Positions 45,982-52,512 of a stretch of 64,000 nucleotides of DNA are shown here, piece after piece. Positions within the stretch are counted from its first letter, which is position 1. Each line of letters opens with the position of its first letter. This DNA is from Sulfolobus sp. A20 (lineage in GTDB: Archaea > Thermoproteota > Thermoprotei_A > Sulfolobales > Sulfolobaceae), in NCBI RefSeq assembly GCF_001719125.1, contig NZ_CP017006.1:930001-994000 (forward strand), read 5' to 3'. The notes under the pieces were generated by a model, which made no database searches, was not told the origin of the DNA, and saw nothing but the letters and a program-made list of their open reading frames with translations. The position numbers and the translations under genes are program-made.

Positions 45982-46215
45982 TACATTTTGATGGTCGTTA
46001 ATTTTTAACTATTTGACTTTTCGGTATATAATTTTTAACATAATCCTAGACTAAGCGATTAGCTCAAAATCATTTTTAACCGTTTATTCCTTAAAAAGGG
46101 TTATTGGTGATGATCTTCAATGTAAAAGTGATAATAAAAGTTAATGGCTTCAAATAAGGTTATTCATCTTGTAAGAGAAGACAGACTTTAATTTTCGTAA
46201 AGTAATTTATTGCCG

Positions 46216-47694
46216 ATGAATTGGGACGAAAGGAGAGTAAAAATCATTGAAGAACTTAGAAAATTGGGTATAGAGCCTTATCCAGCTAAATATGAGATTA
46301 CACATACTATTAAGGATATAAAAAATCTTGCCCTTTCTTACGATTCAAAGTCACATGAACCATTCGTGTTTAACATCTCTACCGCTGGAAGAGTGGCTAA
46401 TATAAGGAGACACGGTAAAGCTTCCTTTGTAGATATTTTTGATGAAGGAGAGAAACTACAATTATATCTAAGAGTAAATGAGCTTAATGAAAAGTATGAA
46501 GATTTCTTTAAGTATATAGATAGAGGGGATATAATAGGAGTTAAAGGCGATGTGTTTTATACCATGAAAGGAGAGTTAAGCCTACTTGTAAAAGATTATA
46601 AATTATTGTCGAAGGCATTAGTAGAACCGCCGGACTGGTCTAAACTATCCCCAGAATTCAGATATGCTCATCGTTATGTCGATTTCCTATATAATGATAA
46701 CGCCAGAAGAGCAATGGAGATAAGGTATAGTGCAATTAGAAGCATTAGGGAATACTTATATTCTAAGGGCTTCATTGAGGTAGAGACTCCAGTGGTTCAA
46801 CCAGTATATGGTGGAGCTTTAGCTAGACCTTTTAGAACTCATGTTAATTATCTAAATGAGGATTGGTACCTAAGAATAGCGCTTGAATTATATCTTAAAA
46901 GGTATATTATTGGAGGATTTAATAAAGTATTTGAAATTGGAAAAGTTTTTAGAAATGAAGATATAGATGTGACTCATAATCCGGAGTTTACTTTACTCGA
47001 GCTATATTGGGCTTACGCTGACTATAATGATATCATGAATCTAACTGAAGATTTAATAAGAACAGTCGCTAAAAGAGTTCTCAACACCACAAAAATCACT
47101 TATAGTAAATATGAAATAGACTTAGAGAAACCATTCAGAAGAGTTTCCATGTTTGAGGCTTTATCAGAAGCTTTAGGAAAGAACGTAGAAGGTATGACCG
47201 ATGAAGAGTTAACAGAATTAATGAAGAAGTATGGTCTTATTCCTAGAGGGAATAAGTACATAAGAGGACTAATGATAGAGAAACTCTTTGATAAGTTAGT
47301 AGTGCCTAATATTGTAGATCCTACATTTATAACTGACTATCCTATAGAGACTACTCCATTATGCAAACCTCATAGAAGTAAACAAGGATTAGTAGAGAGA
47401 TTTGAGCTATTTATTGCAGGAATGGAGTTTGCTAATGCGTATACGGAGCTTAATGATCCGATACTTCAAGATAAATTATTTAAAGAGGAGCAAGAGATGT
47501 TCAAGCGTGGGGATGAGGAGGCACATCCATATGATAAAGACTTTATAAGGGCGTTAAGTTATGGGATGCCTCCTACTGGGGGTTTAGGAATAGGAATTGA
47601 TAGATTAATAATGTTGTTAACTAATAATTATAGTATAAAAGAAGTAATTCCATTTCCTATGATAAGTAGTAAAGTTATCCTGGAGGACGATTAG
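46216..47694 (+). CDS. lysS: Lysyl-tRNA synthetase, class II
   Basis: The product of about 492 aa has an OB-fold anticodon-binding domain (residues 55-135, with [18 protein letters not shown]), motif 2 with [32 protein letters not shown], and motif 3 [13 protein letters not shown]. Sulfolobales use this class II enzyme rather than the class I form of many archaea. ATG 46216 is preferred over TTG 46210; TTTAATTTT lies about 27 bp upstream, giving a leaderless mRNA. It ends by overlapping the protease gene by 20 bp. Confidence 0.93.
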
Positions 47695-48766
47695 AAACAA
47701 ATATTGCAAATATAAAAGTTAACAAGAATATTGACTGCAAGTAAAAGGACACTTTTTCACCGTTTTCCCCTAGAAATCTCTTTAAAGCTTCAGTTAATAG
47801 TTTCCCTCCATCGGTAATTATTAAAGGCGCTGCGTTGAAAAGTGATAGGCTGAAATTTACTATGAACATCCAAGTGAAAAATGTTAATATTGATATTAAA
47901 GGTCCCGGTATATAATATGTAACGTAAACACCTAACAAATGGTTGGGAATGTAAACTGATATATTATGAAAAGTATGATTAGGCAACAACAATGTTATTG
48001 AAACGTTAGTGTAGTTAGTGAGGAATTCATGCAACTGTTGAAAAGTAGTAATAGGATGACCGTTTATGGCATATATTATATCTCCTGCAGTTATTGAAGA
48101 ATTATAAGCTACGCTATTTTTTAGCACACCCACTATCTGTATACCATGAGATAATGCGCTTGGTAAATATGGTAGTTCAAAGGATAGTGGTAATGCAATA
48201 AGTGCTAATATTAAATTTATCACTATACCAGCACTTATTATCTTTATCTTACTAGTTGTTGATGAAGAGTTAAACTCGTTATCGTCTGGCTCTACAAATG
48301 CACCTGGGAATATTGCCAATAGCAAAATTCCACCATTTTTTACTCTAACATTATTTGAAGTAGCTGATAGCGCATGAAAAATTTCGTGTACTGCAACCGA
48401 GATTCCGATAGCTAGTAAGAGGTATGGAACTTGTGACAATCCTATAGTAACGCCAGGGATGATCGGTTTAAGTGCAATAGAAGGTGTTTGATTAGGTTTT
48501 ATTGTAAACATTTCAACTATTATATAAAATATTAGTGATATTCCCCCAATCATTAATATAAAGCCTAGAAACATTGATATTCTCTCATAGATTTTGTATA
48601 TTTTGGATTTAGAAACTCTAGGAAACCAATATTCCCTAGATTTTTTTCTCCACATTATAAAGAAAGGATAAACAGTTATATTGTATTTTTTAAGTTTATC
48701 TTTTAATAAATAAATTATTATCCAAGATGCTAGAAATGTCACTAATGTTAAGTAAATAATATCCAT
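47675..48766 (-). CDS. Site-2-type intramembrane zinc protease with PDZ domain
   Basis: The 363-aa M50 protease has several membrane helices, the zinc site [12 protein letters not shown] (HExxH near residue 127), a PDZ-like domain (about residues 210-275, with [14 protein letters not shown]), and [15 protein letters not shown], the NxxPxxxxDG motif with the third zinc ligand. Such enzymes cut membrane-bound regulators. The extra-membrane loops contain N-x-S/T sites. It is divergent from the nucleotidyltransferase gene (13 bp) and convergent with lysS. Confidence 0.88.
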
Positions 48767-48779
48767 AAGTCTAAATACA

Positions 48780-49457
48780 GTGATAGTGAATATAAAAACT
48801 ATGCAAGTAGAGTATACAGATGCTCATTGGAGACTATTAACAAAGAAAAGGAAAATGGCTTTAGACCTTTTATATAACTTAAAAAAATTAGGGCTTATAG
48901 GCTTTGTTTATGGATCAGTAGCTAGGGGGGATGTAAATGAGAAAAGTGATATAGATATCGTAATTTTTGAACCTAACTATATTTTGTTAGATACGTTGAA
49001 CGTTCATCATAAATATATTATTCAGCCTACACCTTGGTCAACACCAAAAGCTTATTTATCGCTAGATGAGGACGAGAAAGTAGTAATCTCATTTCCTCTT
49101 GGAAAGCTAAAGCGAGATGAAGTTGAATTCTATAACTTTGGAGGGTTAGTGGGTATAGAGGATCTAGAGAATAATAAGAGAGTGCCCGGAGTAAACAAGA
49201 AATTGTACATAATTGAACCTACAGATTACGGACATATGGAAATCTCTCTGCAGGGAAATGAGGACTACGCGTCTAAACTATTAAAGATTTCAGTTAATAC
49301 TATAAGGGAAAGAGAAGCGTTATTAATGAAAAGGAAAGAAAGTGGTCACTCTGGTATATACCTTAGATATGATATTAGTGGAGATGATACTATTTATGAT
49401 GTAATAAATAAGTTATATAAGACCAATAAATATTTTAGGAGAATGATAAATGTTTAA
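48780..49457 (+). CDS. Pol-beta-fold nucleotidyltransferase
   Basis: The 225-aa protein has GFVYGSVARGDVNEKSDIDI (residues 41-60), the GS-x10-DxD core of the Pol-beta nucleotidyltransferase superfamily, followed by an archaeal-specific region (VGIEDLENNKRVPGVNKK, HSGIYLRYD). Substrate unknown: it could adenylate RNA, protein or a small molecule. The true start may be ATG 48801 (MQVEYTDAH). It overlaps the next gene by 8 bp and heads a three-gene operon with a radical SAM enzyme. Confidence 0.72.
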   Translation: MIVNIKTMQVEYTDAHWRLLTKKRKMALDLLYNLKKLGLIGFVYGSVARGDVNEKSDIDIVIFEPNYILLDTLNVHHKYIIQPTPWSTPKAYLSLDEDEKVVISFPLGKLKRDEVEFYNFGGLVGIEDLENNKRVPGVNKKLYIIEPTDYGHMEISLQGNEDYASKLLKISVNTIREREALLMKRKESGHSGIYLRYDISGDDTIYDVINKLYKTNKYFRRMINV

Positions 49458-50031
49458 CATAGACAATTTATATTTAGATAAAAACTTGAAATTAAATGTA
49501 ATAAATGTAAAACGCTCTCATATAAAGGAGTTAATAACTTTTGATTTAATGCTAGGGACTCAGATTATTGGTAGGTGCAATTATTTTGAGGGCAGAGAGT
49601 ATTATACTCCTTGGTTAGAAATTGATTATTATCCAGTTTTAAGATATATGTCAGAAAAGCTTGAAGTAAATTTATTTAAACGCATCTACAACTTATTGTG
49701 TCCTGCATCTAAGTTGTTTGTTACTTATATCAGAGATAAGGAGACTATGGAAATGCTATATAAAGGTCAGCATCCAGCTGAAACCCCCTTAGGTTTCTCG
49801 ATTCTTTCAGCTGGTTTTACGTGGTTTAAGAATTGGTATTTTCCTGAAGGTGGTAATGAAGGTTTCCCTAAACTCCAAGCTAATAAACCTCTTAATTTAT
49901 CTGATGCTATAAGGCAACTGACAGAATTAAAGAGAGAAGTTAAAAGTGAAAAAGTGAGAGATAAAGTGGAGGAATTAATTGACCATTATAGGAAATCCGG
50001 AGATAAGCTTATACAATGGGAAATTACCTAA
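49450..50031 (+). CDS. Conserved archaeal protein, DUF1122-like
   Basis: The 193-aa protein has a strand-rich N-terminal half (IGRCNYFEGREYYTPWLEID), then KGQHPAETPLGFSILSAGF (about residues 104-122) and a helical, basic C-terminus. I place it with DUF1122 from memory; function unknown. It is locked between the nucleotidyltransferase (8 bp overlap) and the radical SAM gene (53 bp overlap), so all three should be co-expressed and may act in one pathway. Confidence 0.6.
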   Translation: MFNIDNLYLDKNLKLNVINVKRSHIKELITFDLMLGTQIIGRCNYFEGREYYTPWLEIDYYPVLRYMSEKLEVNLFKRIYNLLCPASKLFVTYIRDKETMEMLYKGQHPAETPLGFSILSAGFTWFKNWYFPEGGNEGFPKLQANKPLNLSDAIRQLTELKREVKSEKVRDKVEELIDHYRKSGDKLIQWEIT

Positions 50032-51025
50032 AGGATGTGAACTCTGCAGATTAGGAAGCAAGTTAGTATTATACATAACTGGATATTGTGATGATAACTG
50101 TTATTATTGCCCCGTTAGTGAGGAACGTTTTAATAAGGATAGAATTTTTGCCAATGAGATGGAAGTTGTTGCAGATCTCTTTAACATAATCTATGAGGCT
50201 TATAGAATGAAGGCATTAGGTGCCGGGATTACCGGAGGAGACCCCATTCTTAAAATTGATAGAGTAGTTGAAGCAATAAGGTTACTTAAGGACGAGTTTG
50301 GTCAAAGTTTTCACGTTCACTTGTATACAACTGGTCGTTATGTAAATGATGATGTGATGATAGAGTTGGTCAATGCTGGATTGGATGAAATTAGATTTCA
50401 TCCAGTTAAGGAGATATATTTAAATGCGATAAAGACGGCATTGAAATATGATATAGATGTAGGTATGGAAATACCAGCAGTTCCTAATGATAATGAGAAA
50501 GTAGAGAAGCTAATAAAGTGGGCAATAGAAAACAACGTTAAGTTTATAAATTTAAATGAATTAGAATTAAATTCAAGAAATTATACAAATCTTAATAGTA
50601 AAGGGTTTCGCGTAGGTCATGGTATAACTGGCGTATCGGGTAGTTTTGAAACTGCATACGATATTATCAAGAAATTTGAGAATGAGAAGAGGTTGACCTT
50701 ACATTATTGCAGTTCAGTTTATAAGGACGTTGTTGAGACTAGAACTAGGTTCTTTAGAACAATAAAATATAGTGCTAAAGCCTATGAAGATTATACCAAT
50801 GAGGGAACTGTTGTAAGAGCAATAATAAGGACCGAGAAACCTATTTACGAGATGGAAGATTTCGGTGAGAGAATAAGTGAAAATGAGTATTCAATTTCTC
50901 CAACTGTAGTTGAGAATCTTAAGAAAAAATATATGGGAGTAATAAAGGAAATATACATCGTTGAAGAGCATCCCGATTTCAGAAGATTAAGGGTAAACCA
51001 AAATTTAATTTATACTAAATCTTAA
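49979..51025 (+). CDS. Radical SAM protein of an uncharacterised archaeal family
   Basis: The 348-aa enzyme has the cluster motif [15 protein letters not shown] (residues 33-47, CxxxCxxC), preceded by GCELCRLG, and the GITGGDPIL loop near residue 80 that binds SAM. It looks like COG2108-type proteins, related to pyruvate-formate-lyase activase but of unknown function. The C-terminal part has a small added domain. TTG 49979 overlaps the upstream gene; no later start keeps the GCELC segment. It is convergent with pelota by 21 bp. Confidence 0.8.
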
Positions 51026-52036
51026 AATTCCTAGTATTCCAGTAAGGCTCTTAAGTTGGTAATAAATAGGAGATTCCTTAGGTACTAATATAACTTCTCC
51101 GCGCTTATTCTCGACATCCTCGAGAATTTTTTCTATCTCTATCCTTTTCTCCTCGTCAGTATTTGATATCATATCTTCTATAACTAAGATTATATCTATT
51201 GCCCCCATCTCAGAGGCATTCTTTACATGTTCCACACCGTAAACTACTAAATTGGGTTGTTTTGTTAATAACTCTAAAGCCTTTTCCATGTATTTTATTC
51301 CCTTTGATATCTCATAGTCACTCATTATCTTGTCTATTATATCTCTTCTGAGTATTTCATTTAATCCAGCTCTGGTAGCTGAGGATACGCTATCAATATA
51401 GATGTTAACGTTTTTTAAATTAAGCTTTTTAGCTATAATTTCTTTAAAAAATCCAGGTCCAGCTATCAAAATTGCGTTAGGGTGATATTGATCTGTGAAA
51501 GATTGGATCTCATTAACTACTTCCTCTGCGTTTCTTTCAACTGTAATTTCATCGTCACTTATTGATTTTAAGTTTTTTTCAGAAAGTATTTTTATCCCTT
51601 GTTCGTACGGTATAGCAATTATATACTCATCAAAATCTACGATAACTATTAAAATATTGTTTTTACTCTTAGCTTGTTTGTATATTCTATCAACTGCATA
51701 TTTAGACCAATGATCTTTTATTATAACTATTTCGTCCCCTATATCCAGATTAACAGTGTGATGAGCTCCTTTTATACCAAATCTCTCTGGTGCATCTTCT
51801 ATTATTCCATGAATTCGTAATCTATTTGTAAATTCTTGAAATTCTGTATGCTCTACCTTAAGTATTATCGTCATCGGTATACGTCTACTCTCTTTCCCTA
51901 ATCCTACGTCTCTTGAAGTACGCGCGATTATTTTATCTCCATTTTGTAAAATTATATGTAAAGTCCAAAGATCGTCTTCTGTCTCCACGTGTAACCTCAT
52001 TAACTGTCTTTTCTCGTCAAACTCTAATATTCTCAC
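51005..52036 (-). CDS. pelA: Pelota (aPelota), ribosome rescue factor
   Basis: The 343-aa protein matches archaeal pelota/Dom34: an N-terminal Sm-like domain starting [46 protein letters not shown], and eRF1-like central and C-terminal domains (with GPGFFKEI and [15 protein letters not shown]). Without a GGQ motif it splits stalled ribosomes with aEF1-alpha and ABCE1 rather than releasing peptide. Divergent from the acetyltransferase gene by 20 bp. Confidence 0.93.
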
Positions 52037-52056: not shown

Positions 52057-52512
52057 ATGATACTTATATCTGATGCATCAGAGAATGATCTAGATGAGAT
52101 ATATCGAATAGAAGTTAATAGTTTTGAAAAGCCTTATCCTTATTCTCTTTTACGGGCATATTTAGTTTTAGCAGATGGCTTATATCTCACTGCTAAGTAC
52201 GATGGAAAAATAATTGGATACGTTATTGGGATAATTCAGAACGGATACAGAGGTCATATAGTATCGATAGCCGTAGATAAGGCATACAGAAAGAGGGGAA
52301 TAGGCTCTATTCTTCTAAAATCAATTGAAGAAAAATTTAAGATGAAAAATGCTAAATATTCTTATCTAGAAGTAGATCTAAGGAATCGTGAAGCTATTTC
52401 TCTATATTGGAAAAATGGATATATTTCTACATATTTGCGAAAAAATTACTATGGTAGAGGTAAGCATGCATTAATCATGGTGAAAAATTTATATAATATC
52501 AATATTGATTAA
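52057..52512 (+). CDS. GNAT-family N-acetyltransferase (RimI-like)
   Basis: The product of 151 aa has the GNAT core: VSIAVDKAYRKRGIGSILLKS (coenzyme A loop R-x2-G-x-G within residues 72-85), YSYLEVDLRNREAISLYWKNGY, the RimI-type second half. It probably acetylates protein N-termini. The upstream frame to 51913 is antisense to pelota, so I start at ATG 52057 after TCAAGG. It stands before the polymerase gene with a 51-bp gap. Confidence 0.85.
   Translation: MILISDASENDLDEIYRIEVNSFEKPYPYSLLRAYLVLADGLYLTAKYDGKIIGYVIGIIQNGYRGHIVSIAVDKAYRKRGIGSILLKSIEEKFKMKNAKYSYLEVDLRNREAISLYWKNGYISTYLRKNYYGRGKHALIMVKNLYNINID

Follow-up and report, generated by a model that had tools for sequence, protein, structure and literature searches.

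Gene organization of the locus

Which function, if any, is shared by three overlapping genes of the archaeon Sulfolobus sp. A20, situated among genes for translation, and do all three belong together? The window analyzed here is a stretch of 64,000 nucleotides from this genome (2.69 Mb, a single contig), and the nearest relatives sharing the locus are Sulfolobaceae. At positions 48780-51025, the listing of open reading frames gave three intact frames on the plus strand (48780-49457, 225 aa; 49450-50031, 193 aa; 49979-51025, 348 aa), which bears out an earlier note's description of three same-strand genes overlapping by 8 and 53 bp. The genes of the cluster and its surroundings are as follows.

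46210-47694, plus strand: class II lysyl-tRNA synthetase (LysRS), identified by sequence; adjoins the cluster in 8/8 Sulfolobaceae loci
47675-48766, minus strand: M50 (site-2-protease type) membrane peptidase with a PDZ domain; divergent neighbor, kept beside the NTase in Thermoproteota and Asgard
48801-49457, plus strand: nucleotidyltransferase of the pol-beta type (NTase), from an NTP_transf_2 match, a structural model and invariant residues
49450-50031, plus strand: DUF1122 protein, the lineage-specific third gene (Sulfolobaceae); PF06557, E 3.6e-52
49979-51025, plus strand: radical SAM enzyme (rSAM) with a TTG start, from a PF04055 match and conserved cysteine motifs
51005-52036, minus strand: Pelota/Dom34 (eRF1 domains 1-3); convergent neighbor, kept after rSAM
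52060-52512, plus strand: RimI-type GNAT acetyltransferase; conserved neighbor further along

Chance reading frames are ruled out by identities of 45-65% within the families, together with intact active-site motifs. Since the NTase homologues begin at the position of the ATG at 48801 and not at the GTG at 48780, the ATG is the more likely start, the GTG being also possible. For rSAM, the TTG at 49979 is the only start codon 5' of a conserved CxxC, and most close relatives have their start at a TTG in the same place, so that the 53-bp overlap is real.

Distribution of the three genes

Of 300 Thermoproteota genomes, 200 had NTase matches and 160 had rSAM matches, about 100 of the latter strong. 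Among the matches listed, the two genes lay within 5 kb of each other in 43 of the 50 Thermoproteota genomes with both on one contig, and in 41 of these 43 close pairs the two shared a strand, the NTase lying upstream. The two were adjacent in all five Asgard loci. Thermoproteota also hold NTase-only and rSAM-only families, and in some families the NTase sits between M50 and Pelota with rSAM absent. The Thermoplasmatota genomes tested have rSAM and no such NTase, and in Halobacteriota, where rSAM occurs in 89 and NTase in 27 of 120 genomes, the two are usually apart. rSAM is mostly single-copy and was found in most of the archaeal groups sampled. Judged from gene content and order, NTase and rSAM are the ancient core of the cluster. 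The proposal that a nucleotidyltransferase plus a radical SAM enzyme points to an undescribed modification system is thereby supported for these two genes, in that the pair is kept across Thermoproteota and Asgard amid tRNA and translation genes.

The third gene has a different history. DUF1122, whose match to its Pfam family is full-length (176.8 bits, cut-off 25), was found in 57 of the 300 Thermoproteota genomes, including 15/15 of the source's own, Sulfolobaceae-type family. Among the loci inspected, those of Sulfolobaceae are the only ones where it sits between NTase and rSAM; elsewhere its neighbors vary and are unrelated, which rules it out as an equal partner of the two. Moreover, two Sulfolobaceae genomes (G119 and G250) keep DUF1122 and rSAM and lack the NTase. 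Because of these two genomes and the varied neighbors elsewhere, DUF1122 is treated here as a Sulfolobaceae-specific addition to the cluster, presumably either a passenger or an accessory. The idea of the trio as one coupled unit is thus not upheld, the Thermoplasmatota rSAM without an NTase also speaking against it. As for the separation of the genes across genomes, which the earlier note had raised, DUF1122 is apart from the others in most genomes, whereas NTase and rSAM stay together in Thermoproteota and Asgard and are separated in Halobacteriota. DUF1122 belongs to the same family as Aquifex aq_1966 (2arh), a solved relative labelled hypothetical, and no kinship with GNAT proteins was apparent at the level of profiles (hhalign to the RimI profile, probability 0.2%). 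Outside Sulfolobaceae, DUF1122 adjoins genes identified by sequence as 2-oxoacid:ferredoxin oxidoreductase subunits in three loci (L192, L193 and L197).

Translation genes in the neighborhood

NTase and rSAM belong to a recurring block, which consists of an NcsA-like thiolase, the M50 peptidase, NTase, rSAM, Pelota and RimI. The NcsA-like proteins, whose top matches are NcsA and, in the PDB, the U34 thiolase 6scy, score under the NcsA equivalog cut-off. Their genes were found in the flanks of 5/5 Asgard, 13/54 other TACK, 9/51 Thermoplasmatota-like and 0/8 Sulfolobaceae loci, tallies in which the loci share descent, and hence are not independent, and in which some group labels are approximate. 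As a yardstick, in a genome of 2 Mb a single gene would lie no more than 5 kb from a chosen site in about 0.5% of cases. In Sulfolobus sp. A20 itself, the NcsA-like gene is far from the cluster.

Lysyl-tRNA synthetase is another recurrent neighbor, and two non-homologous types share the neighborhood: the class II enzyme in Sulfolobaceae and the class I enzyme in euryarchaea, the latter near rSAM in 5 of the 27 loci from Halobacteriota and other euryarchaea. Pelota, aRF1, RimI and L7Ae recur as well. One locus (L274) has the order NcsA, M50, CutA1 (by reading), NTase, class I LysRS, rSAM, DUF2551, cis-prenyltransferase and aRF1. The recombined adjacency with the thiolase, two LysRS types, Pelota/aRF1 and ribosomal genes favors a substrate linked to translation, and the NTase fold together with the thiolase neighbor favors RNA. 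We tentatively propose that NTase and rSAM are the core of an uncharacterized archaeal pathway modifying translation RNA, most likely tRNA, a reading with a real, if somewhat less than even, chance of being correct.

The main rival that remains is ancestral synteny without a functional link, i.e. that NcsA, M50, NTase, rSAM, Pelota and RimI are an inherited housekeeping block in which NTase and rSAM have unrelated functions. This account, which we regard as unlikely though deserving serious weight, is favored by the M50-NTase-Pelota order, which survives where rSAM has been lost, and by the phyletic distributions of the two genes, which coincide in part only. Each gene is often found without the other, and ancestral gene order, not function, may explain the links to NcsA, M50 and Pelota; both points count against the proposed RNA pathway. 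However, the inheritance of one order does not lead one to expect the rearranged pairs that recur, namely NcsA-rSAM, NTase-NcsA, RimI-rSAM and LysRS-rSAM. For example, the NcsA-like gene lies directly before rSAM, with the NTase not adjacent, in L236 and L237, and beside the NTase in L182, L183 and L187, from genomes without rSAM. The retention of strand and order in the 41 of 43 close pairs, among the matches listed, also argues against a mere relic.

Halobacteriota present a different picture, as the commonest rSAM neighbors there are DUF2551 and cis-prenyltransferase genes and not tRNA genes, a further point against an RNA pathway. Most loci from L256 to L268 show a conserved trio of rSAM, DUF2551 and cis-prenyltransferase (UppS), in that order. 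The prenyltransferase gene raises the thought of a polyprenyl or membrane lipid as the rSAM substrate, and elsewhere M50 and a small membrane protein adjoin; the similarity of rSAM to Tes is weak. No prenyltransferase was seen near rSAM in the Thermoproteota, Asgard and Thermoplasmatota loci, however, and we give a lipid substrate only a slight chance.

The nucleotidyltransferase

The NTase matches NTP_transf_2 (PF01909) with 29.4 bits (cut-off 21), and the same match was obtained for 45/45 homologues. Its active site is that of the pol-beta type, GS-x10-DxD, and the invariant residues in the 45 homologues are G38, S39, D44, D50, D52 and E107 (218-aa numbering). Candidates for the third carboxylate, from the alignment, are the invariant E107 and the nearly invariant D89. 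The predicted structure (pLDDT 95) contains a pol-beta palm, which is closest, weakly, to RNA terminal nucleotidyltransferases (Cid1, CutA) and the CCA enzyme. These matches are weak in absolute terms, with Z about 5 for the palm and about 6 at best, which also counts against the RNA pathway. NTase shares with pol-beta nucleotidyltransferases a palm bearing GS...DxD and, beyond this motif, an acidic residue, whereas a length of about 220-240 aa and a conserved C-terminal half of its own set it apart from Cid1/CutA, the CCA-adding enzyme and the MNT antitoxin. The model of the type VII antitoxin MntA scored 19.2 bits, below its cut-off of 60. Winged-helix matches in the C-terminus are weak and confined to a minority of members, so a winged helix-turn-helix there is possible. 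An apparent NTase fusion in one genome (G098, an open frame of 653 aa) was rejected, its extra length being merely unused upstream frame.

The radical SAM enzyme

With 48.7 bits to Radical_SAM (PF04055; cut-off 29.5), rSAM is by sequence a member of the radical SAM superfamily, for which cleavage of SAM is predicted. The cysteines of its CX3CX2C motif, C37, C41 and C44, are invariant in 42 homologues. An extra CxxC near the N-terminus occurs in 150/150 distinct sequences, and a late HxC motif in 138/150; four inspected sequences without HxC keep the late cysteine and have lost the histidine. In rSAM of the haloarchaeal type (L269, L270, L271 and L272), CX4CX2C replaces CX3CX2C, and two inspected sequences of this type retain the late cysteine and lack the histidine of HxC. 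The conservation pattern suggests that the three extra cysteines, C20, C23 and C244, are ligands of another Fe-S cluster that has an open site, presumably a single cluster shared by all three.

The predicted structure of rSAM (pLDDT 95) is a partial TIM barrel. This fold, the CX3CX2C motif and about 200 structurally matched residues are common to rSAM and PFL-AE, viperin, NifB, MoaA and Tes, from which it differs by an identity of 11-20%, the extra N-terminal CxxC, the late cysteine and a C-terminal region of its own. The highest-scoring structural match is viperin (Z 17.3, 3.0 Å over 211 residues), and the alignments to viperin and MoaA reach into the C-terminal part. This brings in the alternative that NTase and rSAM make or modify a nucleotide or nucleotide-derived cofactor, as viperin and MoaA act on free NTPs. 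By analogy with MoaA, the three extra cysteines of rSAM could bind a nucleotide. Nevertheless, viperin, NifB and PFL-AE have Z scores of 16-17, too close for ranking (NifB is within 1 Z unit of viperin, PFL-AE just beyond), and the gene context is that of translation and not of cofactor synthesis; a nucleotide or cofactor product thus seems very unlikely.

Neither NTase nor rSAM attained any named NCBIfam equivalog, and Elp3, TYW1 and RaSEA models were not among the matches listed for the two. MoaA models (TIGR02666/02668) gave 24-26 bits, with cut-offs of 231-325. The best NCBIfam match of rSAM was the peptide maturase HxsC (TIGR03977), far below threshold with 40.3 bits against a cut-off of 267.9. 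It is nonetheless in line with a protein or peptide target, e.g. a translation protein such as a ribosomal protein, aRF1 or Pelota, in a pathway to which M50 may also belong; M50 is a constant neighbor, and Pelota, aRF1 and L7Ae are nearby. We consider such a target rather improbable, given that the Pfam and NCBIfam scans gave no SPASM match, that no conserved gene for a precursor peptide was seen, and that M50 stays beside the NTase where rSAM is missing. As regards the proposed RNA pathway, no RNA-binding domain was recognized in rSAM, which weighs against it.

A possible RNA modification pathway

If NTase and rSAM do modify translation RNA, SAM would be cleaved at the CX3CX2C cluster of rSAM, and the 5'-deoxyadenosyl radical would act on RNA or its nucleoside; the three extra cysteines would probably carry another Fe-S cluster. 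From an NTP, the NTase would move a nucleotidyl group (e.g. AMP), either to prepare a moiety for the reaction that follows or to add to the RNA. We infer this joint action, the RNA substrate, the ligation of the clusters and every chemical step, whereas the structure of the genes, their superfamilies, the intact motifs, the deep conservation and the neighborhood are observed.

One of the nearest known systems is the archaeal NcsA/Elp3 wobble-uridine pathway, given that NcsA-like genes recur beside NTase and rSAM, whereas these two match neither NcsA nor Elp3 models. For side chains of archaeal U34, cnm5U and cnm5s2U among them, the biosynthesis is described as unknown (PMC7694415; PMC11323500). 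It is conceivable, at long odds, that the steps lacking for such a side chain (e.g. that of 5-cyanomethyl-2-thiouridine) are carried out by rSAM and NTase beside NcsA, with tRNA-Lys among the tRNAs modified and adenylylation of a carboxylate intermediate as the task of the NTase; this link to cnm5U/cnm5s2U is speculation. Among archaea, cnm5s2U34 is present in Thermococcus and Methanocaldococcus. Our literature search found nothing relevant on the NTase-rSAM pair or on DUF1122. A conserved archaeal radical SAM enzyme with extra cysteines and without an assigned function represents a gap in archaeal biochemistry, and the context of the two genes could help to find the source of orphan RNA modifications in archaea, a number of them known only as structures without enzymes.

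Lastly, two further genes accompany the pair in certain lineages. Several lineages have, between NTase and rSAM, a gene for a probable membrane protein of only ~105-130 aa, and in others this gene is beside rSAM (L084:1117-1449, L130:4572-4913, L087:1115-1426, L224:5957-6265 and L225:4561-4881). The protein gave no clear match to a known family, and its identification as the conjugation pilin TedC/CedA1 was rejected, as there was no clear PDB or Pfam support. In one lineage, a second, different radical SAM gene (L243:6066-7094) is found between the NTase and RimI-rSAM.
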